In this document: positions 14,710-26,179 of the stretch, piece by piece
Layout: each line of letters begins with the position of its first letter
Numbering within the stretch: position 1 is the stretch's first letter
The notes under the pieces: generated by a model
Database searches by the model: none
What the model saw: the letters and a program-made list of their open reading frames with translations, nothing else
What the model was told of the DNA's origin: nothing
DNA from: Anaerolineae bacterium
GTDB lineage: Bacteria > Chloroflexota > Anaerolineae > Anaerolineales > Anaerolineaceae
Direction: 5' to 3'
Assembly: GCA_013178295.1 (NCBI GenBank)
Contig: JABLWW010000011.1
Span: forward strand, 248,001 to 312,000
DNA: 64,000 nucleotides
Position numbers and translations under genes: made by a program

Positions 14710-15066
14710 ATGCTGAGTGACTGGCTCTATGTCGGTATCTTTCTGGTTATTGCTACATTTTTGCCATTTGTTGCCATCACCTTAGCGGGTATTCTGGGAC
14801 CTAAAAAACCGAATCGTTTGAAAAGCACAATCTATGAGTGTGGTATTGAGACTGTGGGGGAGACGTGGGTGCAGTTCCGTGCACAGTATTATATCTTTGC
14901 ACTGGTCTTTGTTGTGTTCGACGTGGAGACAGTGCTGTTATACCCCTGGGCGGTTGCGTATAACCAGCTAGGGTTGTTTGCTGTGGCAGAGGCTGTCCTG
15001 TTTGTGTTGATTCTGTTTGCTGCTCTGGTTTATGCCTGGCGCAAGGGTGCTCTCAGGTGGTTTTAG
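14710..15066 (+). CDS. nuoA: NADH-quinone oxidoreductase subunit A
   Basis: The 118-residue product has three transmembrane helices. The NuoA loop KPNRLKSTIYECGIE contains the conserved Cys near residue 45, and a FVVFDVETVLLYPWAV-type block follows. NuoA contacts the quinone-site region of complex I. The ATG follows AAGGAG. It is the first gene of a cluster that lacks nuoB, C and D, which normally follow. Confidence 0.96.
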   Translation: MLSDWLYVGIFLVIATFLPFVAITLAGILGPKKPNRLKSTIYECGIETVGETWVQFRAQYYIFALVFVVFDVETVLLYPWAVAYNQLGLFAVAEAVLFVLILFAALVYAWRKGALRWF

Positions 15067-15087
15067 CCATAGGACAGGAGGCTGCTG

Positions 15088-16326
15088 ATGGGATTTATCC
15101 AGTTTTTGATTGACCCGGTAACCTTTATTGCCCGCTGGTTGCAAATGCTGCTGGCAGGGTGGGGCGTTCCGGCGGGGTGGACGCAGTTTATCCTTTTTGT
15201 GTTGGGCGCCGGAGCGCTTGGCACTGGGGCTTTGATGTTCACTATTGCGCTGATCTGGTTTGAGAGAAAGTTGATTGGTCGTTTTCAGGATCGTTTTGGT
15301 CCAAATCGGGTAGGACCATGGGGGATTTTCCAGCCATTTGCCGACATGGGAAAAATTTTCACCAAAGAATATATCACACCTGATGGAGCTGACCCGGTTC
15401 CGTTTTATCTGGCGCCAATTTTGGTGGTAATGTCGGTGGTTTCGTTGTGGGCTGTGATCCCCTTTACGCTGACGGTGGTAGGTGTTGAGTTGAATGTGGG
15501 AGTCCTGTATATTATTGGCATCGGAGGCATCGGCGAACTGGCGATTATCTTTGCCGGATGGGGCTCCAACAACAAATATGCCATGCTTGCGGCTTTTCGC
15601 GCTTTGGCGCAGCTGATTTCATACGAAGTTCCTATGGTGATTGCGCTGCTTGTACCGGTCATGTTTGCGGGCAAAATGGGCTTGAACGACATTGCTCGGG
15701 CACAGGATATCTGGTACATTGTGCTTTGCCCGCTGGCGGCATTGATATTTTTTATCACCTCTACGGCTGAAAACGGGCGTACCCCTTTCGATTTGCTGGA
15801 GGCGGATTCGGAGTTGGTTGCCGGTTTTAATATTGAGTATTCGGGGTTACGCTTTGGCTTCTATTATGTAGCCGATTTTCTCCATGCTTTTACGATTGGA
15901 TTATTGTTTGCCATCCTATTTTTGGGCGGCTGGAGAGGTCCTTTCGTTGAGCAGGTGCCTGTTCTGGGTGTCTTTTACCTGTTTGCGAAAGCCGGTATAG
16001 TTTATTTTATTGGCAACTGGATGAGAGCTTCTCTACCCCGCTTCCGTATTGATCAGATGATGGATATTAACTGGAAGATTTTGACTCCCACAGCACTGGT
16101 GCTTGTGATGTTGACTGCGGTGGTGGATAAGTTGATTGCGTCTGAATTGTTGTATTTGCAGGCGGCAGTGCTGTTTGTTCTTAACGTTGTCTTGTTAGTT
16201 GTAATTGGAAAAGTGATTGATTGGTATTGGGCACACCGCCCGCGCCCGAAGGTGGTTGCCACTCCCCGCCCGGTTGCCCGCTATGAGCGGAGTTCTGCTC
16301 AATCCCATCCTGGAGCTGGTCAATGA
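15088..16326 (+). CDS. nuoH: NADH-quinone oxidoreductase subunit H
   Basis: NuoH forms the quinone tunnel at the foot of the membrane arm. The diagnostic loop FERKLIGRFQDRFGPNRVGP lies near residues 55-75, and ENGRTPFDLLEADSELVAGFNIEYS near 230-255. At 412 residues it is longer than the roughly 325-residue E. coli form, with extra C-terminal helices and a basic tail. Its stop overlaps the nuoJ ATG by 4 nt, so the two are coupled. Confidence 0.96.
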   Translation: MGFIQFLIDPVTFIARWLQMLLAGWGVPAGWTQFILFVLGAGALGTGALMFTIALIWFERKLIGRFQDRFGPNRVGPWGIFQPFADMGKIFTKEYITPDGADPVPFYLAPILVVMSVVSLWAVIPFTLTVVGVELNVGVLYIIGIGGIGELAIIFAGWGSNNKYAMLAAFRALAQLISYEVPMVIALLVPVMFAGKMGLNDIARAQDIWYIVLCPLAALIFFITSTAENGRTPFDLLEADSELVAGFNIEYSGLRFGFYYVADFLHAFTIGLLFAILFLGGWRGPFVEQVPVLGVFYLFAKAGIVYFIGNWMRASLPRFRIDQMMDINWKILTPTALVLVMLTAVVDKLIASELLYLQAAVLFVLNVVLLVVIGKVIDWYWAHRPRPKVVATPRPVARYERSSAQSHPGAGQ

Positions 16327-16838
16327 CAATCATGCAGATAATCTTTCTTATCACAGCGTCTGTGACGTTGTTTGCCGCCTTGATGGTGGTCAGCACGCGC
16401 AAGATGATGCACGCAGCAATGTGGTTGATCCTGGTGCTTTTTGGTGTAACGATCACGTTTGCCTTGCTGGAGACTCGCTTTTTTGCCATTGTCCAACTGG
16501 TTATTTATATTGGCGCGATTGCCATTCTCATCATCTTTGCTGTGATGCTCACGCGTCGCAGTATGAATGCGGATGTACCTCAAGTTAATCGTAACTGGTG
16601 GCTGGTGATGGTTTCGTCTCTGGCGTTGTTTGTGGGTCTTGTTACGGTGATGAGCGTCTGGGAAGGATTTTTTGTGACAGCACGCACTGCTCCACCCGGC
16701 GGGGAAAATCTGGTGCAGTTGGGAACTGCGCTGGTTGACCCAAATGGCTTTGTCTTGCCGTTTGAGGTCGCCTCGCTGGTTTTGCTGGCAGCGATGGTGG
16801 GCGCAATTTATGTGGCGGCGGAGCGAAAGGAGAAGTAA
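16323..16838 (+). CDS. nuoJ: NADH-quinone oxidoreductase subunit J
   Basis: The 171-residue membrane protein has five predicted helices. The MMHAAMWLILVLFGVTITFALLE region and the VQLVIYIGAIAILIIFAVML helix, with its pi-bulge-prone Tyr-Ile-Gly-Ala motif, identify NuoJ. In a complete cluster nuoI lies between nuoH and nuoJ; here nuoH is followed directly by nuoJ. Confidence 0.95.
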   Translation: MTIMQIIFLITASVTLFAALMVVSTRKMMHAAMWLILVLFGVTITFALLETRFFAIVQLVIYIGAIAILIIFAVMLTRRSMNADVPQVNRNWWLVMVSSLALFVGLVTVMSVWEGFFVTARTAPPGGENLVQLGTALVDPNGFVLPFEVASLVLLAAMVGAIYVAAERKEK

Positions 16839-16841
16839 TAC

Positions 16842-17150
16842 ATGATACCGTTATCTTGGTTTCTTACCTTCTCGGCGGCCTTATTTTGTATTGGTCTGTT
16901 TGGTGTTCTGGCGCGCAAGAATGCGGTCGCAATTTTGATGGGTCTTGAATTGATGCTAAATGCAGTCAACATCAACTTGCTCGCTTTCTGGTGTTATCTG
17001 TATGGTAAGGACTTGAGCGCCCTGGTTTTTGTTGCCATTGTCTTTGTGGCTGCCGCAGCAGAAACGGCTGTGGGGCTGGCGTTGATTATTTCAGCTTACC
17101 GCGCGCGCAATACAGCCGTAGCGGACGAATTGAATTTGCTTAAAGGATGA
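16842..17150 (+). CDS. nuoK: NADH-quinone oxidoreductase subunit K
   Basis: The 102-residue product has three helices. The NuoK signature GLELMLNAVNINLLAF with its conserved membrane Glu lies near residue 36, and a second Glu lies in the AAETAVGLAL helix near 72. Both belong to the proton-transfer chain of the membrane arm. It starts 3 nt after nuoJ. Confidence 0.96.
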   Translation: MIPLSWFLTFSAALFCIGLFGVLARKNAVAILMGLELMLNAVNINLLAFWCYLYGKDLSALVFVAIVFVAAAAETAVGLALIISAYRARNTAVADELNLLKG

Positions 17151-17172
17151 TCTTGACAGTCTGTGAGGTGCT

Positions 17173-19350
17173 ATGACGACTGAACTTTTGACCTGGCTTG
17201 TTCCCCTGCCGCCGTTGCTGACTTTTTTTCTGATTCCGCTGTTCACGCACCGCAAAAATGGTCTCAGCCACTGGCTGGCGATATTGGGGGCAGGGGTTTC
17301 CTGGCTTCTCAGCATGGTCATTTTCTTCCGGGCTGCATCCATCAGCCATTTATCTGAACATCCCCTGACGCTGGCAGTCAACTGGATACCAACCGGGGAG
17401 AACTGGCTGCAGATTGGTGTTCATGTTGACCCACAAACAGCGGTAACTTTGTTTTTTGTCGCCTGGACGATCTTGATGATTTTTATCTACAGCGTTGGGT
17501 ATCACAATTACGGGCAGCCAAAGGGGGATCATGATCAAAAGGGTCTCCCGCCGCACGGGGCTACCGTAACCGAGCATGGGCATGCACACAAAGTGCCCTC
17601 TGTTGAACCTATGTATGCCCGTTTCTTTGCGTTTTTTGGATTGTTTGCGTTTGGCATGTACCTGTTGGTGGTTACGGATAATCTCTTGACCCTCTTTATC
17701 GGCTGGGAGATTATGGGTCTGTGCTCTTATCTGTTGATTGGTTTCTGGTATGCCAGACCTTCGGCGCGTGATGCGGCTGTCAAGGCTTTTCTCACCACGC
17801 GTGTGGGTGATATGTTCTTGATGCTTGGTCTGGTGGCGCTTTACTCGATTACCGGAACATTGAATTATCAGGCAATTTTGCACAATGAAGAGGTGCTTGC
17901 AAGGCTGGCGTCAGCAGTTTCACCGGTTTTGGGACTTTCGTGGGCGGGACTGATTGGCATCTTGATTTTTATCGGCGCGGTGGGAAAATCTGCACAATTT
18001 CCGTTGCATGTGTGGTTGCCGGATGCGATGGAAGGCCCGACACCAGTTTCTGCAATGATCCACGCAGCGACGATGGTATCAGCTGGTGTCTATCTTGTTG
18101 CGCGTTTCTTCCCCCTGATTTCTGCTGGCTGGACACCTGGAGAACCCCTGACGGCGGCGATGCTGGTGGTGGCAGCTATAGGCACTTTTACGGCGTTGTT
18201 TGCTGCAACCATAGCGCCAGCGCAGGACGATATCAAACGCGTGCTTGCTTACTCTACCATTTCGCAGCTGGGTTTTATGATGGCGGCGCTGGGAATTGGC
18301 GCTTATGTTGCGGCGGTGTTTCACCTGGTGACACATGCCTTTTTCAAGGCGCTGCTCTTTTTGGGTTCGGGGTCAGTCATTCACGGTATGGAACACGGCG
18401 TGTTGCACACTGGGGAGCATATTGACCCGCAGGATATGCAGAATATGGGCGGGCTGCGCGCCAGGATGCCTTTGACCTTCTGGACGTTTTTGATTGGCGG
18501 GCTGGCACTTTCAGGGTTTCCGGTGCTGACGGCAGGGTTCTGGTCAAAGGACGAAATACTTTCCGGGGCGTTTAACGGGGGATTTGTGCTGGTCTTTGTT
18601 GTTTTGGCGTTGGCGGCTTTGCTGACGGCCTTCTATACTGGGCGGCAGATCACCCTGACCTTTTTGGGCAAGCCGCGCACCTCAGCGGCTGAACATGCCT
18701 GTGAGTCTCGCTGGAGTATGACCATCCCTCTGTGTATTTTGGCGTTTTTCTCGGTTGTGCTGGGGTGGGCTGGAATTCCTGAGAAGTTTCCGCTGCTGGG
18801 CGGTGTGATTCCCAACTGGTTTGGGGCGTTTGTCGGCTCTATGGCGGCGGAAGGGGCACATGGTGCGGAAGCCCACCACAGCAGCATCCCTCTGTTGACT
18901 TCGCTGGTAGTGGCGTTGGGTGGGTTGCTGTTAGGCTGGCTGGTATATCGCAATACTGAGGCGGGGGCGCCTGACCCACTCAAAAAGCTGGGCATGGTGT
19001 ATGTTTTGTTGCGGCGTAAGTACTATTTTGACGAGTTATATCATTTCATTTTCATTCGACCGGCAATGTGGATCGCAGAGGTACTGGTATATGCCTGGGG
19101 AGATTTGAAAATCATTGATGGGATTTTGCATTTTATTGGAAACGCGGGAACATGGCTGGGGAATTTTCTGCGCGGTGCGGTGGATCAGCCTATCATCAGC
19201 AATGGCGGTGATGCGCTTGCCAGCGGGGCGCGAGAGGCTGGGGGGCGGTTGCGTGTGATCCAGACCGGGCGCGTTCAGCAATATATGTTGATATCCATTG
19301 TGGTAACCGTTCTGGTTGGAATTTTGCTGCTTTTGCTGGCGTCTGCATAG
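17173..19350 (+). CDS. nuoL: NADH-quinone oxidoreductase subunit L with extended lateral helix
   Basis: The 725-residue product is the distal antiporter-like proton channel plus the long lateral helix; E. coli NuoL is 613 residues. The core motifs GWEIMGLCSYLLIGFWY and LPDAMEGPTPVSAMIHAATMV are clear. Two parts are enlarged. A His-rich loop lies at about residues 115-145. The lateral-helix region has about 49 residues between the IDG (near 648) and the conserved QTGRVQ (697), against roughly 20-25 in ordinary NuoL as I remember it. This fits a complex with an additional NuoM. Confidence 0.95.
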   Translation: MTTELLTWLVPLPPLLTFFLIPLFTHRKNGLSHWLAILGAGVSWLLSMVIFFRAASISHLSEHPLTLAVNWIPTGENWLQIGVHVDPQTAVTLFFVAWTILMIFIYSVGYHNYGQPKGDHDQKGLPPHGATVTEHGHAHKVPSVEPMYARFFAFFGLFAFGMYLLVVTDNLLTLFIGWEIMGLCSYLLIGFWYARPSARDAAVKAFLTTRVGDMFLMLGLVALYSITGTLNYQAILHNEEVLARLASAVSPVLGLSWAGLIGILIFIGAVGKSAQFPLHVWLPDAMEGPTPVSAMIHAATMVSAGVYLVARFFPLISAGWTPGEPLTAAMLVVAAIGTFTALFAATIAPAQDDIKRVLAYSTISQLGFMMAALGIGAYVAAVFHLVTHAFFKALLFLGSGSVIHGMEHGVLHTGEHIDPQDMQNMGGLRARMPLTFWTFLIGGLALSGFPVLTAGFWSKDEILSGAFNGGFVLVFVVLALAALLTAFYTGRQITLTFLGKPRTSAAEHACESRWSMTIPLCILAFFSVVLGWAGIPEKFPLLGGVIPNWFGAFVGSMAAEGAHGAEAHHSSIPLLTSLVVALGGLLLGWLVYRNTEAGAPDPLKKLGMVYVLLRRKYYFDELYHFIFIRPAMWIAEVLVYAWGDLKIIDGILHFIGNAGTWLGNFLRGAVDQPIISNGGDALASGAREAGGRLRVIQTGRVQQYMLISIVVTVLVGILLLLLASA

Positions 19351-19370
19351 GCAAAGGGAGAGAAGAGAAT

Positions 19371-20882
19371 ATGGACTGGATTTTTAATCACCTTGTAACG
19401 CTCATTCTTTTTATTCCCACCCTGGCTGCGCTTCTCATGCTATTTCTCCCAGCGGCAAAGATCACTTTGTTGCGCTGGTGGGCTTTTATTGCCAGCCTGA
19501 TACCATTTCTCCTTTCGCTGGTGGTATGGGCACGCTTTGATGCTGACGGGAAAGGCTTTCAATTTGTCGAGCACACCATCTGGTATCGCAGCCTGAACGC
19601 TTCATATCATCTTGGGGTGGACGGTATTTCACTGACGCTGGTTGTCCTGACTACTTTCCTGACGCCGCTGGCAATTCTGGCGTCTTACAGTATCCAGGAG
19701 CGGGTTAAAGCCTATATGATCCTCTTCTTGCTTCTGGAGACGGGAATGCTGGGAGTTTTTCTCTCTCTGGATTTGCTGCTCTTTTTTGTCTTCTGGGAAA
19801 TTGGTTTGGTGCCCATGTATTTTTTGATCAATCAGTGGGGCGGCAGCAACCGCAATTATGCTTCGCTCAAGTTCATTCTCTATACGATGGGCGGCTCTCT
19901 AGGTTTGTTGCTCTCCATACAGCTCATGGGGGTGGTTGCGGGCACCTACGACTTGCCGCTATTGTTTGAACGTTGGGCAAATCTGAAGGAAGCCACGCTA
20001 CTGGGTATGCCCACAGAGACGGTCAAGTCCATCATCTTCTGGGCATTTGTGGTTGCCTTTGCGATCAAAGTGCCAGTGTGGCCGTTCCACACCTGGCTAC
20101 CGGATGCCCACACGGAGGCGCCAACCGCCGGTTCGATGATTCTGGCAGGTGTGTTGCTTAAACTGGGAGGGTATGGATTTCTGCGTCTGGTGTTGCCGCT
20201 TTTTCCGCAGCAGGCGCATCAGTTTGCGGGGTATCTGGCGTTGCTCGCTACGCTGGCGGTGATTTTGGGAGCACTGGGTGCCTGGGCGCAGAAGGATTTC
20301 AAGCGTCTGGTAGCGTATTCTTCAATTAACCACATGGGGTTTGTGGTGTTGGGCATTGCAGCGGCTGCCTGGGCTGCTGGTACTGAGAATGCTGTTATTG
20401 CAGTCAATGGGGCAGTTTTGCAAATGGTTACCCATGGGCTTTCATCGGCGGGGATGTTTTTTCTGGTGGGCGTGATTTACGAGCGCACACATACCCGAAA
20501 CCTTGAAGAGTATGGTGGTTTATTTACCCTTGTGCCGGTGTATGGAGGCATCTTGCTCTTTGTCGCGATGGGGTCGTTGGGATTGCCAGGACTGGCTGGT
20601 TTTGTCTCTGAGTTTCTGGTGATACGGGGTGTTTGGCCTGTTTTCACGCTTGCGACTGCACTAAGTATGATTGGGCTCTTTTTTACCGGTGCTTATATTC
20701 TCAAAGCGCTGCGCCAGGTTTTACATGGCCCGCTTAATGAACGCTGGGTAGGGCATCTTACCGAAATCAATTTGCGCGAGATTGTGGTCATTGCACCTAT
20801 GATGGCTTTGATGCTGTTGATTGGCGTTTACCCAGCATGGATACTGGATGTGATCAACCGCGCCGTTATGATGTGGTTCTAA
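19371..20882 (+). CDS. nuoM: NADH-quinone oxidoreductase subunit M, first copy
   Basis: The 503-residue antiporter-like subunit has about 14 helices. The pumping motifs are visible: Glu in FFVFWEIGLVPMYFLI near residue 143, and Lys in the FAIKVPVWPFHTWLPDAHTEAPTAGSMILAG-type block near 235. YSSINHMGFVVLG identifies NuoM. It is followed 11 nt later by a second, divergent NuoM. Confidence 0.95.
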   Translation: MDWIFNHLVTLILFIPTLAALLMLFLPAAKITLLRWWAFIASLIPFLLSLVVWARFDADGKGFQFVEHTIWYRSLNASYHLGVDGISLTLVVLTTFLTPLAILASYSIQERVKAYMILFLLLETGMLGVFLSLDLLLFFVFWEIGLVPMYFLINQWGGSNRNYASLKFILYTMGGSLGLLLSIQLMGVVAGTYDLPLLFERWANLKEATLLGMPTETVKSIIFWAFVVAFAIKVPVWPFHTWLPDAHTEAPTAGSMILAGVLLKLGGYGFLRLVLPLFPQQAHQFAGYLALLATLAVILGALGAWAQKDFKRLVAYSSINHMGFVVLGIAAAAWAAGTENAVIAVNGAVLQMVTHGLSSAGMFFLVGVIYERTHTRNLEEYGGLFTLVPVYGGILLFVAMGSLGLPGLAGFVSEFLVIRGVWPVFTLATALSMIGLFFTGAYILKALRQVLHGPLNERWVGHLTEINLREIVVIAPMMALMLLIGVYPAWILDVINRAVMMWF

Positions 20883-20893
20883 CGAGGTGATGA

Positions 20894-22363
20894 ATGCAAT
20901 TTCCCATTCTTAGCGTCATTATATTCATCCCACTGGTTGCTGCCCTGTTGATTCTTCTTCTGCCAGCTCAGCAGCGCAATTGGATTCGCGGCTTGGCTCT
21001 CGGTGCAGTGACACTGGACTTTTTGTTAACGCTGGTGGTTTACTTCAGCTATGATGCTGCTGCTGGCGGCTACCAAATGTTGGAGCGGTTTGCGTGGCTG
21101 CCTGCATTGGGTATTTCCTATTACGTTGGCGTGGATGGCATTAGCGCCCCGCTGGTATTGATGGCGGGCGTGGTTGCCTTTTGTGGTGTTTTGGTTTCGT
21201 GGAATGTTGATGACCGCCCACGCGAGTTTTTCTCCTTCCTTCTGTTTTTAGCCGTTAGTGTGCTTGGGGTGTTTGCCTCGCTGGATTTGTTTCAACTGTT
21301 CTTTTTCTTTGAGCTGGCAATTTTCCCCAAGTATTTGATGATTGTCGTCTGGGGGTCGCCGAAGACGCGTGAATATGGGGGTATGAAATTGACCTTGTAT
21401 CTGTTTATTGGTTCGATGTTTGCCTTGCTGGGGGCGCTGGCAATCTACTTTGGGTCGGGGTTGCGGACGTTTGACATGCTGGCGCTGGAAAAAGCGGGTT
21501 TTGCGGCAGAATTTCAGCGTTTTTGGTTTTTGTTTGTTTTTCTTGGGTTTGGTGTGCTGGGAGGTATTTTCCCCTTCTATAGCTGGGCGCCGGATGGTCA
21601 TGTGGCTGCGCCGACGGCTATCTCCATGATGCTGGCAGGGGTCGAGATGAAGGTGGGTACGTTTGCCGCCCTGCGTGTGGGTATCATGCTTTTGCCCGAA
21701 GGGGCTCGTCATTGGGCATGGTTGATTTTGGCGCTGGCGACTGTCAACGTGGTTTATGGCGCGCTGATTGCGATGATTCAAAGCGACTTTAAATACGTGA
21801 TTGGTTTCTCTTCCGTTTCACACATGGGGCTGGTCTTGATTGGCTTCGCGTCGCTCAATGCAAAGGGGTTGCTGGGTGCGGGTCTGCAAATGTTCTCCCA
21901 TGGTGTGATGACGGCGCTTTTCTTTGCTGTGGTCGGGATGGTGTATGATCGCACCCATACGCGGGATATTGCCAGGCTGGGTGGTCTGTATCGCAAGATG
22001 CCCTGGGCGGCGGTGGGTTTTATTATTGGTGGTTTGGTTTCGATGGGGATGCCGGGTTTTTCGGGGTTTGTGGCTGAGTTCCCGATCTTTATGGGCGCCT
22101 GGCAGGCAATGCCTGTGGTGGCGATCATCGCTATTCTTGGCATTTTGATAACCGCTGCCTACATTCTGCTGGTTGTACGCCGGGTATTTTTTGGTGATCT
22201 GCCGGCGGATTATGAGATGGTGGCTGATATTAGCCTGCTGGACAAAATTGCTATTGGAGTGCTTGCCGCGATGATGATTGCTTTGGGTTGTTTTCCTGTA
22301 TTGATGGAGCCGTTAGTCGCTTCGGGCGTCGGGCGTATCATGGCGCTGCTGGGAGGTATGTAA
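20894..22363 (+). CDS. nuoM: NADH-quinone oxidoreductase subunit M, second copy
   Basis: The 489-residue product is a second NuoM-like antiporter subunit and is clearly diverged from the first. Its blocks read FFFFELAIFPKYLMIVVWG, FPFYSWAPDGHVAAPTAISMMLAGVEMK and FSSVSHMGLVLIG. The HTWLPD of copy one is replaced by YSWAPDGH, but a membrane Glu and Lys set remains. Tandem NuoM genes mark the so-called 2M complex I, proposed to carry an extra proton channel. Confidence 0.92.
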   Translation: MQFPILSVIIFIPLVAALLILLLPAQQRNWIRGLALGAVTLDFLLTLVVYFSYDAAAGGYQMLERFAWLPALGISYYVGVDGISAPLVLMAGVVAFCGVLVSWNVDDRPREFFSFLLFLAVSVLGVFASLDLFQLFFFFELAIFPKYLMIVVWGSPKTREYGGMKLTLYLFIGSMFALLGALAIYFGSGLRTFDMLALEKAGFAAEFQRFWFLFVFLGFGVLGGIFPFYSWAPDGHVAAPTAISMMLAGVEMKVGTFAALRVGIMLLPEGARHWAWLILALATVNVVYGALIAMIQSDFKYVIGFSSVSHMGLVLIGFASLNAKGLLGAGLQMFSHGVMTALFFAVVGMVYDRTHTRDIARLGGLYRKMPWAAVGFIIGGLVSMGMPGFSGFVAEFPIFMGAWQAMPVVAIIAILGILITAAYILLVVRRVFFGDLPADYEMVADISLLDKIAIGVLAAMMIALGCFPVLMEPLVASGVGRIMALLGGM

Positions 22364-22366
22364 CCC

Positions 22367-23824
22367 ATGATGATTGATGTTGGCAGGATGATGTTGGAAA
22401 TACTGCCCGAAATAGGGCTGCTTATATTGATAGGGGTTGTACTTGTTCTGGATTTGTTCTGGCGGAAATCAAGAAAGAAGCTTGGATGGGTATCCTTTGC
22501 TGGATTGCTGCTGATCTTTGTGCTGACCCTCGTGTTTGTGCAACCAGCCCGTTTGCCTCAGCTCACATGGGGCGGGATGATCAGCCTGGATATGACTGGC
22601 TATATCTTCCGAATGATTTTTATCGCAGGCGCTGCTCTTACTGTCCTTTATGCAATTGCAAATGATAGTCTAGCGGGGCGCGGTGAATTTTATTTGCTGT
22701 TGCTTACCAGCACGTTGGGTATGTGTTTCATGGCTTCTGCGGCGGATTTGATTATGCTGTTTCTGGCGATCGAAACAACAACCGTACCGCTTTTTGTGCT
22801 GGCTGGTTTTCTGACGCGTGATCAGAAGTCGGTCGAATCGGGTATCAAGTACCTGCTCTTTGCCGCTATGACATCGGCGGTGATGTTATATGGGTTTACC
22901 TGGCTGTATGGTTTTAGCGGCACAACTCAGCTTTACCAGATCGCGGAGCGTCTAAAGTATGGCTTTGTGCCGCAGGCTGCTGTTGTTGCCGCGATGATGC
23001 TGGTTTTGGTCGGGTTTGGCTTCAAAATATCTGCAGTGCCTTTCCATTTTTGGGCACCGGATGTTTATGACGGTGCTCCCTACCCCGTGGCAGGTTTTCT
23101 CTCCACAGCCTCAAAAGCGGCTGGGTTTGCGGTGTTGGCGCGTGCGTTGTTTGTCATCTTCCCATTGCAAACCGAAACCTGGACGCTGATTGTTGCCTTG
23201 CTGTCAACGGCTTCCATGTTTGTCGGTAACCTTCTGGCGTTGGCGCAGAAAAATATCAAGCGGCTGCTGGCGTACTCATCCATTGCGCAGGCGGGTTATA
23301 TCCTGATTGGTGTGGCGGCAGATTCACCTCTGGGAACCAGTGGAGTGATTTACTATCTGTCTGCTTATTTACTCACAAACCTGGCAGCCTTCGGTATTGT
23401 TGCGCTGGTCGGTCGCGCGGTCGGATCGGATGAGATTTCTGCCTATGCCGGGTTGAGCCGCCGTTCTCCAGCGCTTGCGCTGGCGATGCTGGTGGTGATG
23501 CTTTCGCTGGGGGGAATCCCACCCTTTGCTGGTTTTATTGGTAAGTTGCTGGTTTTTGCCGCCGCTATTGAGCGTGGTTTGATCTGGTTGGCAATTCTGG
23601 GGGTGATCAACACGATTGTGGCGCTGTTCTACTACCTGACGGTGCTGAAGGTGATTTATCTTTACCGTTCGGAAGAGGAAGATAAACCGCTTGCCGTCTC
23701 ATCAGCGGCTGGCACGGCGCTGGTCATTTGTATTGTGGGTATTATTGCTCTTGGGGTGGTCATCGCCCCGTTGTATGGCTGGTCAACGGATGCGGCAGCC
23801 ACGTTGCTTTTTCTGCCTCGTTGA
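22367..23824 (+). CDS. nuoN: NADH-quinone oxidoreductase subunit N
   Basis: The 485-residue antiporter-like subunit lies next to NuoK in the complex. LAIETTTVPLFVLAGF near residue 135 carries the channel Glu, and the block FKISAVPFHFWAPDVYDGAPYPVAGFL near 220 carries the Lys. AYSSIAQAGYILIG is also typical. Start ATG is at 22367 or 22370. It is the last nuo gene and no terminator follows; the Fo genes start 32 bp later. Confidence 0.95.
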   Translation: MMIDVGRMMLEILPEIGLLILIGVVLVLDLFWRKSRKKLGWVSFAGLLLIFVLTLVFVQPARLPQLTWGGMISLDMTGYIFRMIFIAGAALTVLYAIANDSLAGRGEFYLLLLTSTLGMCFMASAADLIMLFLAIETTTVPLFVLAGFLTRDQKSVESGIKYLLFAAMTSAVMLYGFTWLYGFSGTTQLYQIAERLKYGFVPQAAVVAAMMLVLVGFGFKISAVPFHFWAPDVYDGAPYPVAGFLSTASKAAGFAVLARALFVIFPLQTETWTLIVALLSTASMFVGNLLALAQKNIKRLLAYSSIAQAGYILIGVAADSPLGTSGVIYYLSAYLLTNLAAFGIVALVGRAVGSDEISAYAGLSRRSPALALAMLVVMLSLGGIPPFAGFIGKLLVFAAAIERGLIWLAILGVINTIVALFYYLTVLKVIYLYRSEEEDKPLAVSSAAGTALVICIVGIIALGVVIAPLYGWSTDAAATLLFLPR

Positions 23825-23850
23825 CTTGTAGAATCAATATTTGGTATAAT
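23821..23850 (+). promoter_or_regulatory. Promoter of the Fo gene cluster (possibly leaderless)
   Basis: TTGACT (23821-23826) and a perfect TATAAT (23845-23850) are spaced by 18 bp, and the -10 is preceded by TGG, an extended -10. The -10 ends 6 nt before the atpI ATG, so the expected start point falls on or next to the ATG. No Shine-Dalgarno sequence lies between. Confidence 0.7.
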
Positions 23851-23856
23851 TCTCTT

Positions 23857-24168
23857 ATGAATCTGCCCCATGGTAATCACCAGGAGCGCAAAACCCGTCT
23901 TTTCAATCTGGCGGTGATTGGTATCGTAGGGCAGGTGGGTTTTTTTACATTACTGATTATTCTGGTGGCGCTGTTTGCAGGGTTGGGGCTGGACAACCAA
24001 ATGCAGACCCGCCCGTTGTTTACGCTGGTTTTTTTAGTGGCAAGTGTTCCGATATCCCTTATAGTCATGTTTGTGGTTGTCCGCTTTGGCCTGAGGCGGA
24101 TCAACCCTGGTAAGATGAAGTCAGAACCCAAACAACAAGAGGAGAATGACTTTGGAAACTACTCGTAA
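23857..24168 (+). CDS. atpI: AtpI-like small membrane protein, first gene of Fo cluster
   Basis: The 103-residue product has two transmembrane helices (about residues 19-42 and 55-80) and a hydrophilic C-terminal tail. Position before atpB and size match the AtpI/gene-1 group, which helps assemble the c-ring or transports Mg2+ in other bacteria. Sequence similarity is weak, so the name rests largely on context. The end overlaps atpB by 23 nt. No ribosome binding site precedes it. Confidence 0.65.
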   Translation: MNLPHGNHQERKTRLFNLAVIGIVGQVGFFTLLIILVALFAGLGLDNQMQTRPLFTLVFLVASVPISLIVMFVVVRFGLRRINPGKMKSEPKQQEENDFGNYS

Positions 24169-25126
24169 ATGGCGCTATGGTGTAAACCGCTGGATTGTTT
24201 TGCTCACCATCATCTTGGGGATTATAGGTGTAAATATCGCTGCCCCTGTCCGTCCCCATATCCAGGTTGCTCCTGAAGTGCTTTCGCCCGAACCTCTTTT
24301 TACGCTGCCAGTGATTGGGGATTTCTATCTGACCAACACCATGATAGCCATGTTCATCGGTGATGTCATTATTATCCTCATCGCTCTGGCGGTGCGCGCA
24401 GCAGCCAGACGGGGCAGTCTGGTGCCTGCGGGTATTTCCAATGCCATTGAGGGGTTGATGGAGGTGGTTTATAACCTGACTGAAACCTCTGCTGGCAGGT
24501 GGGCTAAGACGATTTTCCCCTGGTTTATGACCATCTTATTGCTGGTGCTGGTAGCCAATCTATTGAAGATTTTGCCAGGTGTTGAGAGCATTGGGGTTTT
24601 GCATCACCTTCATCATGGTCATGAGATTGAGGAGGTTTTGCCTGGTGTATATACGGTTTTGCCCGAAGAAGCAGAAGGCGAGGGATATGTGGTTACGCCC
24701 TTTGTGCGTGGCTTGTCAACCGATTTGAACTTTACGGTGGCGCTGGCGTTGATCTCGGTGTTTATGACGCAGGTCATTGGTGTTCGTGCTCAGGGTGCGG
24801 CATATTTTCTCAAGTTTGCCAATGTGCGCACACTGTTTTCCAAACCGTTCTTTGGCGCCATGGACTTTATTGTGGGGTTGCTTGAACTGATCTCTGAGTT
24901 TGCGAAGATTCTTTCGTTCTCCTTTCGTCTTTTTGGCGTTATGTTTTCCGGTGTGGTGCTGGTAGCACTGGTGGCAACCATGTTACCGGTGTTCATGCCG
25001 TCCTTTGTGTATATGTTTGAAGTATTCATGGCGTTGATCCAGGCGTTTGTGTTTGGTATGTTGACGATGGTGTTTATGTCGCAGGCAACACAGGGGCATG
25101 GCGCTGAGGAGCATACAGAACATTAG
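24146..25126 (+). CDS. atpB: ATP synthase Fo subunit a
   Basis: Subunit a forms the two proton half-channels. The 326-residue product has the essential Arg in the helix SEFAKILSFSFRLFGVMFSG near residue 260. The preceding loop (near residues 150-160) is unusually His-rich. The ATG at 24146 follows GAGGAG inside the atpI gene. Confidence 0.95.
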   Translation: MTLETTRKWRYGVNRWIVLLTIILGIIGVNIAAPVRPHIQVAPEVLSPEPLFTLPVIGDFYLTNTMIAMFIGDVIIILIALAVRAAARRGSLVPAGISNAIEGLMEVVYNLTETSAGRWAKTIFPWFMTILLLVLVANLLKILPGVESIGVLHHLHHGHEIEEVLPGVYTVLPEEAEGEGYVVTPFVRGLSTDLNFTVALALISVFMTQVIGVRAQGAAYFLKFANVRTLFSKPFFGAMDFIVGLLELISEFAKILSFSFRLFGVMFSGVVLVALVATMLPVFMPSFVYMFEVFMALIQAFVFGMLTMVFMSQATQGHGAEEHTEH

Positions 25127-25175
25127 ATGGCTTTGAGCAGTATCAGGAATAAATGACCAAGGAGGTTAATAACGA

Positions 25176-25412
25176 ATGACAGGTGACATTATCATGGCGG
25201 CGAAGTTCATTGGGGCAGGTTTGTCAATGATTGGAGCCTTGGGCGCAGGTGTGGGTATTGGTATGAGCGTTCAGGGCGCTTTGCAGGGTATGGCGCGCAA
25301 CCCTGATGCGTATGGAAATCTGTTGACCAATATGATTTTGGGTATTGCGTTCTCAGAAGCGATCGCCATTTATTGTCTGGTGGTTGCGTTCTTAATGCTC
25401 TTTGTGCTTTAG
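25176..25412 (+). CDS. atpE: ATP synthase Fo subunit c
   Basis: The 78-residue hairpin protein forms the rotor ring. The first helix is Gly-rich (GALGAGVGIGM), the polar loop reads ARNPDA, and the ion-binding Glu lies in GIAFSEAIAIYC near residue 62. The residue after this Glu is Ala, not the Ser/Thr of sodium-type c subunits, so protons are the likely ion. An AAGGAGG site precedes the ATG. Confidence 0.95.
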   Translation: MTGDIIMAAKFIGAGLSMIGALGAGVGIGMSVQGALQGMARNPDAYGNLLTNMILGIAFSEAIAIYCLVVAFLMLFVL

Positions 25413-25435
25413 ACTTTCAGTTAAGGAGAACGACC

Positions 25436-26179
25436 TTGGAGAAATTAGGTATTAACCTTGGGTATCTGATTGTCCAGATATTGAACTTTGTGGTCATTTT
25501 TGTTGTCCTGCGCGCCTGGGTGTATAAGCCGCTGATGGCGATGCTGGAAAAACGCCGGGCGACGATTGCTCAGGGGTTGGAGGATGCGCGCATCGCGGAG
25601 GAGGCACGGGCAAATGCCGAAAAAGAGAAAGAGCGTATCCTCTCTGAAGCACAGACAAAGGCTGCTGAGATTGTACGTGAGGCAGCCGAGCGCGCCGAAG
25701 CGGTTGGAAAGGAACGACTGGCAGCTGTCGAAGCAGAAATAGCAAAGACGCGTGAAACGGCTTTGGCAGAGGTGGAGCAGGAGCGCAACCGTCTATTGGG
25801 CGAGCTGCGTAGCCAGGTGGTGGCGTTGTCAATTGCAGCTGCGCAGAAACTGGTGGGCGAAACGCTCAAGCAGGATGAGCGCCGCCAGCATGACCTGTTG
25901 CAAGAGTTTTTCTCCGGCGTAAGAGCGGGCAGAGTTGTGGTGCTTGAAGGGACGGATCTTTCCGGTGAGGCGGCTGAAGTCACCAGCGCATTGCCGCTCA
26001 CGCCTGAAGAGCAGGAAGTGATCAAAAAGGAAGTGCTTTCTTCCTTGGGTTCGGCTGCCACAATTAGCTTTCGCGTTGACCCCTCTATTCTGGGTGGTCT
26101 GGTTGTGCGGGTAGGAGACCGGATACTGGATGGCTCGGTGGTTGGGCAGTTGCAGGAATTACGTCAAAGCTTGCAATAA
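25436..26179 (+). CDS. atpF: ATP synthase b-delta fusion subunit
   Basis: The 247-residue product starts at TTG 25436 behind AAGGAG (25423-25428). Residues about 6-28 form the membrane helix and 35-150 a long charged coiled coil, both as in subunit b. The last roughly 85 residues end ILGGLVVRVGDRILDGSV, the C-terminal signature of subunit delta (OSCP). The delta N-terminal helical domain is missing. So the peripheral stalk is a b joined to a shortened delta. A separate atpH is not present here, and no F1 gene follows. Confidence 0.9.
   Translation: MEKLGINLGYLIVQILNFVVIFVVLRAWVYKPLMAMLEKRRATIAQGLEDARIAEEARANAEKEKERILSEAQTKAAEIVREAAERAEAVGKERLAAVEAEIAKTRETALAEVEQERNRLLGELRSQVVALSIAAAQKLVGETLKQDERRQHDLLQEFFSGVRAGRVVVLEGTDLSGEAAEVTSALPLTPEEQEVIKKEVLSSLGSAATISFRVDPSILGGLVVRVGDRILDGSVVGQLQELRQSLQ

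Follow-up and report, generated by a model that had tools for sequence, protein, structure and literature searches.

A probable 2M complex I in an Anaerolineae bacterium: a split membrane-arm cluster whose second NuoM lacks the ion-pair lysine

When a gene cluster codes for a complex I membrane arm that has two NuoM subunits, and for no peripheral arm, which complex does it serve, through which module do the electrons enter, and does the second NuoM add a pumped proton? These questions are raised by positions 14710-23824 of a stretch of 64,000 nucleotides, here called the window (G000:C3:248001-312000), from an Anaerolineae bacterium whose genome (G000; 3.95 Mb in 21 contigs) has a listed completeness of 97.8% and a contamination of 4.95%. 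An earlier note on this DNA proposed a 2M complex I, a type marked by a second NuoM and a lengthened NuoL (PMC6606698), for which an extra pumped proton has been proposed (PMC7117926 and PMC6606698; papers are cited here by PMC number and for the parts of them consulted). We find the identity of the cluster as a 2M complex I very likely. Our overall best explanation, which we consider probable, is that the cluster encodes a 2M membrane arm completed in trans from another contig, with a second NuoM (NuoM2) that lacks the lysine of the interface ion pair.

The open reading frames (ORFs) and family matches agree with the gene order claimed in the earlier note, nuoA-H-J-K-L-M1-M2-N, and we read eight intact genes, all on the + strand. 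They are nuoA (14710..15066; 118 aa; PF00507, 1.6e-36), nuoH (15088..16326; 412 aa; PF00146, 2.1e-106), nuoJ (16323..16838; 171 aa; PF00499, 2.2e-32), nuoK (16842..17150; 102 aa; PF00420, 6.6e-24), nuoL (17173..19350; 725 aa; TIGR01974, 589.2 bits), nuoM1 (19371..20882; 503 aa; TIGR01972, 535.1 bits), nuoM2 (20894..22363; 489 aa; TIGR01972, 448.5 bits), and nuoN (22367..23824; 485 aa; TIGR01770, 396.3 bits). All eight proteins match their own Pfam family above the curated cut-off, as do NuoL, both NuoM, and NuoN their NCBIfam models; the best NCBIfam models of NuoA and NuoJ and the top model of NuoK name the right subunit, yet score below the narrow equivalog cut-offs. None of the ORFs inside the cluster is a nuoB, C, D, E, F, G, or I, an absence that the earlier note had reported. 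It had also called the two NuoM clearly different, and indeed each scores more than 1000 bits against itself, while NuoM2 scores 268 bits against NuoM1.

The longer lateral helix that had been expected in NuoL alongside the second NuoM is present as well. We aligned 58 NuoL, 29 from 2M clusters and 29 others that include those of E. coli and of a second nuo locus of the same genome, on contig C16; the 2M set consists of 14 with the gene order seen here (our own included), 7 from other genomes of the phylum, and 8 from Nitrospira. In the C-terminal lateral helix, all 29 of the 2M NuoL have 26-27 residues in the insert columns, and none of the 28 scorable other NuoL has any (L155 was cut short and left unscored). 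In the window this lateral-helix (HL) insert comprises NuoL residues 660-686 (19150..19230, + strand), although where exactly it begins and ends depends on the alignment. Counted from the FD motif to the C-terminus, the 2M NuoL have 102-113 residues, one row (G017) extending past its likely stop, against 70-85 residues in 26 of the 28 others. Two small genomes of the phylum with one NuoM (L163, L166) have 107 residues after the FD motif, owing to a different insert elsewhere in the lateral-helix region. A 26-aa insert at a like place in related complexes is described in PMC9040806.

The second NuoM itself departs from the family at a residue central to current models of proton pumping. In these, a glutamate of transmembrane helix (TM) 5 and a lysine of TM7, E144 and K234 of E. 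coli NuoM (E123 and K204 in Thermus numbering), form an interface ion pair that is a switch in each module; when the pair opens, the barrier to moving a proton from a central lysine (K265) via a histidine to a distal glutamate (E407) falls (PMC9271201, PMC11496545). We compared 25 rows of the NuoM2 clade with 49 other NuoM in a NuoM-only alignment, the E. coli numbering being checked on the K-12 sequence. At the position of K234, lysine is found in 49/49 of the others, and leucine (18) or isoleucine (7) in 25/25 of the NuoM2 clade. The residue in the window is L222 of NuoM2 (codon 21557..21559, + strand, placed by computation from the residue number); NuoM1 has the TM7 lysine (K233). The NuoM2 clade keeps E144 in 24/25 rows (Asp in one), K173 in 25/25, K265 in 23/25, H322 in 25/25, and E407 in 25/25. 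NuoM2 proteins therefore mostly retain the central proton wire (K265-H322-E407) and the TM5 glutamate, without the TM7 lysine of the E144/K234 pair. They also lack the mostly acidic residue at the site of E. coli Q250 (Ala in 24/25) and the mostly basic one at that of R313. The lysines of E. coli NuoM have reportedly been the subject of mutational work by Euro (2008) and Torres-Bacete (2007).

A wider count gave the same picture. Among 125 distinct NuoM-type proteins (20 of 145 were dropped, as their middle 120 residues recurred in another), the K234 position holds Lys in 74, Leu in 43, and Ile in 8. The 51 Lys-less proteins are all 48 NuoM2 and the NuoM of three single-NuoM loci; every one of the 74 other NuoM has the lysine. 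In 47 of the 48 Lys-less NuoM2 (that of L143 is partial), nuoM1, or a part of it at a contig end, lies upstream in the same cluster, the exception being the relative G014. At the three single-NuoM loci, L126/L172 (G149:C15), L152 (G223:C205), and L154 (G173:C3), a Lys-less protein is the only NuoM between nuoL and nuoN; these proteins group within the NuoM2 clade, and the NuoL encoded with them lack the HL insert. At the three wire sites, the L174 protein has Ala (K265), His (H322), and Glu (E407). Twelve single NuoM that are closer to the NuoM2 of the window than to NuoM1 or canonical NuoM still have the lysine, and closeness to NuoM2 alone is therefore insufficient for its loss. The sample, which is no census, combined 30 loci, the best matches to the window's NuoM2 among 201 genomes drawn from the phylum, with 31 further Chloroflexota stretches hand-picked from the same list, several of which repeat the first 30.

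A charge compensating for the lost lysine was considered and rejected after comparison of NuoM2, NuoN, and NuoL. Between the 25 and the 49 aligned NuoM, no conserved charge gained in the NuoM2 clade was found. In the NuoN and NuoL of 2M complexes, the other subunits that this check covered, the membrane core likewise showed no conserved compensating lysine. NuoL and NuoN keep their own TM7 lysine in every row scored. The NuoN of 2M complexes have a fixed histidine (H227 in our protein) where others have His or Gln, and a few new charged positions of their NuoL are partly conserved, including two within the HL insert.

The earlier note had proposed a NuoM tree, and ours, built with IQ-TREE from 81 rows and rooted at the midpoint (the program flagged long outgroup branches), places the second NuoM within NuoM and outside Mrp, which is represented by one row. 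The NuoM2 clade (25 rows, support 100/100) contains the NuoM2 of this order and class, of the other 2M operons of the phylum, and of Nitrospira, together with the three single Lys-less NuoM. The NuoM1 rows, the remaining single NuoM, and E. coli NuoM stand elsewhere in the tree, and the Mrp, hydrogenase, and NuoN rows lie outside. Since its clade is separate from the NuoM1 rows, NuoM2 is an old, separate NuoM lineage and no recent copy of NuoM1.

The earlier note had left nuoB, C, D, I, E, F, and G to be located in the rest of the genome. There, a PF00346 search found NuoD-type genes on three contigs: C12 carries nuoB, a fused nuoCD of 580 aa, and nuoI (G000:C12:213041-216101; L027:7041-10101); C16 carries a full nuoA-N operon of 14 genes, only one of which codes for a NuoM (L026); and C18 carries what we read as hydrogenase-like homologues. 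We also read a Mrp-like cluster on contig C9, apart from the nuo loci. The proteins encoded on C12 include the NuoB CC motif, two CxxCxxCxxxCP (4Fe-4S) motifs in NuoI, and HPSTHG and RLDY in NuoD. No nuoE, F, or G lies beside nuoB-CD-I on C12. Because nuoB-CD-I was found with no NuoEFG nearby, the input module of the split complex would be B-CD-I.

The relatives associate this module with the 2M cluster. Besides our genome, 13 of the 20 relatives searched encode a fused NuoCD of the C12 type (open frames of 564-614 aa), and all 13 belong to the 15 relatives with a 2M cluster; none was found in the five relatives in which no 2M cluster was seen (G004, G005, G010, G012, G013). In one of these, G013, the contig that bears the PF01512 gene has an open frame of 622 aa whose NuoD is only 44% identical. 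Across the nuoCD stretches of the 13 relatives, nuoCD is present in all 13, nuoI in 12, and nuoB in 11; each of the gaps falls at a contig end. These stretches gave no match to our NuoE, F, or G.

Directly after nuoI on C12 lies the gene of a small conserved protein with two CxxC-type motifs and no Pfam or NCBIfam match (L027:10126-10452), which adjoins nuoI in 10 of the 13 relatives' loci; of the remaining three, one is truncated by the end of its contig. This Cys-rich protein was rejected as a 2M-specific electron-entry subunit: it occurs in three genomes in which we saw no 2M cluster (G004, G012, G013), and four 2M genomes (G002, G017, G018, G019) yielded no copy. In G019 and G018 (L183, L184), a Mrp/ApbC-like ATPase of the Fe-S carrier type, named from its sequence, is encoded downstream of nuoI.

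For 17 of the 20 relatives (G005, G012, and G013 were left out), we then read the nuo and antiporter regions and found the split cluster, whole or partial, in 15. It runs from A to N in one stretch in G003, G006, G007, G009, G011, G015, G018, G019, and G020 and is partial, at contig ends or split over two contigs, in G001, G002, G008, G014, G016, and G017. The weakest case is G014, in which only nuoM2, nuoN, atpI, and atpB were seen and no nuoM1 lies beside nuoM2; the 2.2 kb upstream of nuoM2 hold, in its stead, a gene for a glycosyltransferase-like membrane protein (L044:6484-7899; named from sequence). NuoM2 itself was found in 14 of the 17 relatives, but not in G002, G004, and G010, and is partial in G001; in the stretches read, G004 and G010 have hydrogenase-type genes only. 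Foreign ORFs stand between or upstream of the nuoM genes in G015 (166 aa, lipoprotein-like; L035:6501-6998) and G016 (four-helix-bundle-like; L036:3175-3663), both named from sequence. Between our genome and G003, NuoM2 is 75% identical, with a nonsynonymous divergence (dN) of 0.18, a saturated synonymous divergence (dS), and differences of 0.23, 0.11, and 0.59 at codon positions 1, 2, and 3. A canonical-type NuoD match is found in all 16 of the 2M genomes, our own included (partial in G002). These comparisons indicate that the split cluster is a maintained second complex under purifying selection.

Two readings would make less of the cluster. It might be a relic beside the complete nuo operon, and the earlier note had held that a second complete operon would show as much. 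Such an operon does exist, on C16 and with one NuoM, but the conclusion does not follow: the eight genes are intact, the cluster is conserved among the relatives and NuoM2 is constrained, and the canonical-type NuoD is present in all the 2M genomes as well, so that both are kept. We regard a relic as very improbable. Still less credence is due to the reading of the second NuoM as a Mrp-type subunit. NuoM2 does cross-match Mrp models, below their cut-offs and just as NuoM1 does, but it matches TIGR01972 above the cut-off, and in the tree it belongs to NuoM, the single Mrp row and the hydrogenase antiporters falling outside. Some observations do weigh against our explanation of a 2M arm completed in trans. 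The fused NuoCD was not found in two 2M relatives, G002 (87% complete) and G015 (97%), even when rechecked with the whole NuoCD protein. The genome has four PF01512 (NuoF-type) genes, one of them in the canonical operon, and sharing of NuoEFG is thus possible. Most NuoM2 loci entered the sample as best matches to the NuoM2 of the window, and a divergent NuoM2 that has the lysine may therefore have escaped it. Finally, the listed contamination of 4.95% makes a misbinned contig conceivable, but relatives have the two loci as well.

Taken with the co-occurrence of the two loci, the arrangement suggests a complex whose membrane arm is completed in trans by the products of nuoB, the fused nuoCD, and nuoI. 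With NuoEFG missing, its electrons would probably come from reduced ferredoxin or another soluble carrier protein, not from NADH, and pass on to menaquinone. The lengthened NuoL helix would clamp four antiporter-like modules instead of three, in the order L-M1-M2-N if gene order is a guide.

What the fourth module contributes can be read in several ways. The earlier note's 2M complex stands in its second NuoM and lengthened NuoL, whereas the extra protons proposed with it are weakened by a NuoM2 without the TM7 ion-pair lysine; given this loss, subunit counting cannot establish an extra pumped proton. Our tentative view, drawn from sequence comparison, is that NuoM2 may handle protons along the wire without a gate of its own and be driven by the adjacent subunits, so that it may or may not add a full extra proton per two electrons. 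If NuoM2 were instead an ordinary fourth pump, with the ion-pair lysine dispensable or replaced, the complex would move one more proton per two electrons than the canonical one, as proposed for 2M complexes in PMC7117926 and PMC6606698. The mostly retained wire residues agree with this, and the HL insert suits a fourth module, but a lysine that all 74 other NuoM have is absent from all 48 NuoM2, neither a conserved new charge in NuoM2 nor a conserved membrane-core lysine in NuoN or NuoL of 2M complexes was found, and the Glu/Lys pair is the switch of each module in PMC9271201 and PMC11496545; we think a fourth pump rather unlikely. At the other extreme, NuoM2 could lengthen the arm as a silent spacer or relay, moving no proton across the membrane and leaving the stoichiometry at four. 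The lost lysine and the alanine in place of the mostly acidic residue at Q250 speak for this, whereas E144, K173, H322, and E407, kept in at least 24/25 rows, and K265, kept in 23/25, across Chloroflexota and Nitrospira would be needless in a mere spacer, and three loci use a Lys-less NuoM as the only one between nuoL and nuoN. This we consider less likely still.

Behind these readings lies a broader statement, to which we give about even weight: the NuoM2 lineage of Chloroflexota and Nitrospira works without the Glu/Lys pair, so that either 2M complexes pump no extra proton or pumping needs no ion pair, and some complexes have a Lys-less NuoM only. The extra 2M proton has been invoked for energy conservation under alkaline conditions or slow growth and for reverse electron transport in Nitrospira (PMC7117926, PMC6606698). 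That inference rests on subunit counts, and because the added subunit has lost the gating lysine throughout, the claim becomes directly testable; Lys-less NuoM2 are natural variants for testing the ion-pair model of complex I.

Upstream of the cluster lie ribosomal-protein genes (named from sequence) and a MazG/tetrapyrrole-methylase gene. Downstream, nuoN is directly followed by F0 genes of ATP synthase (23848..26179, + strand), which are not part of complex I: an atpI-like gene (23848-24168), atpB (24146-25126), an atpE-like gene (25176-25412; named from sequence only), and a gene for a fused b/delta subunit (25373-26179). The ATP synthase is likewise split, and two adjoining PF00006 (alpha/beta-type) genes lie on another contig (G000:C19:127146-130370). 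In relatives whose stretch extends that far, atpI and mostly also atpB follow nuoN.

Set against known systems, the cluster and its companion locus show the marks of 2M complexes: an adjacent second NuoM of the NuoM family, a lengthened NuoL helix, and genes elsewhere in the genome for the hydrophilic subunits B, C, D, and I. The canonical 14-subunit complex I, such as that of C16 or of E. coli, shares the membrane-arm families but has one NuoM, a short lateral helix, NuoEFG, and K234 in NuoM; the split cluster has two NuoM, with no EFG in the cluster or beside nuoB-CD-I. In Green complex I, MrpD-like subunits replace NuoL (PMC9040806), whereas the 725-aa protein here is a NuoL (TIGR01974, 589.2 bits). 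Nor is a Mrp antiporter a fit, as NuoM2 does not group with MrpD in a tree with one Mrp row.

The closest match is the Anaerolinea-type 2M complex I of cultured Chloroflexi, for which PMC7117926, citing Chadwick et al. 2018, describes nuoLMMN with an additional NuoM, a separate nuoBCDI, and a fused nuoCD; we found no difference in layout. The layout has thus already been described for Chloroflexi. We did not find the Lys-less NuoM2 described in the open literature searched, and the consulted parts of PMC7117926 do not mention the loss; Chadwick et al. 2018 lies outside that literature and may mention it. The Chloroflexus 2M complex I likewise has two NuoM (C. aggregans nuoABCDHJKLMMN, PMC8004040; C. 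aurantiacus Caur_1976-1987, PMC3150298), but its genes form one unsplit operon that includes peripheral-arm genes. Four loci of the same phylum with a Chloroflexus-like order, nuoD-I-H-J-K-L-M1-M2-N (L167, L168, L169, L173), have the HL insert and a Lys-less NuoM2, as here. The 2M complexes of Nitrospira (N. moscoviensis, L136, and seven genomes, L137-L143), for which ferredoxin reduction by reverse transport has been hypothesized (PMC6606698), also have a lengthened NuoL and a Lys-less NuoM2 of the same clade. They differ in having Ile, not Leu, at the K234 site, a separate NuoC and NuoD (PMC12342949), and a NuoM1 that stands apart from the Chloroflexota NuoM1; what the two phyla have in common by origin or transfer is therefore NuoM2, and not necessarily the whole complex.

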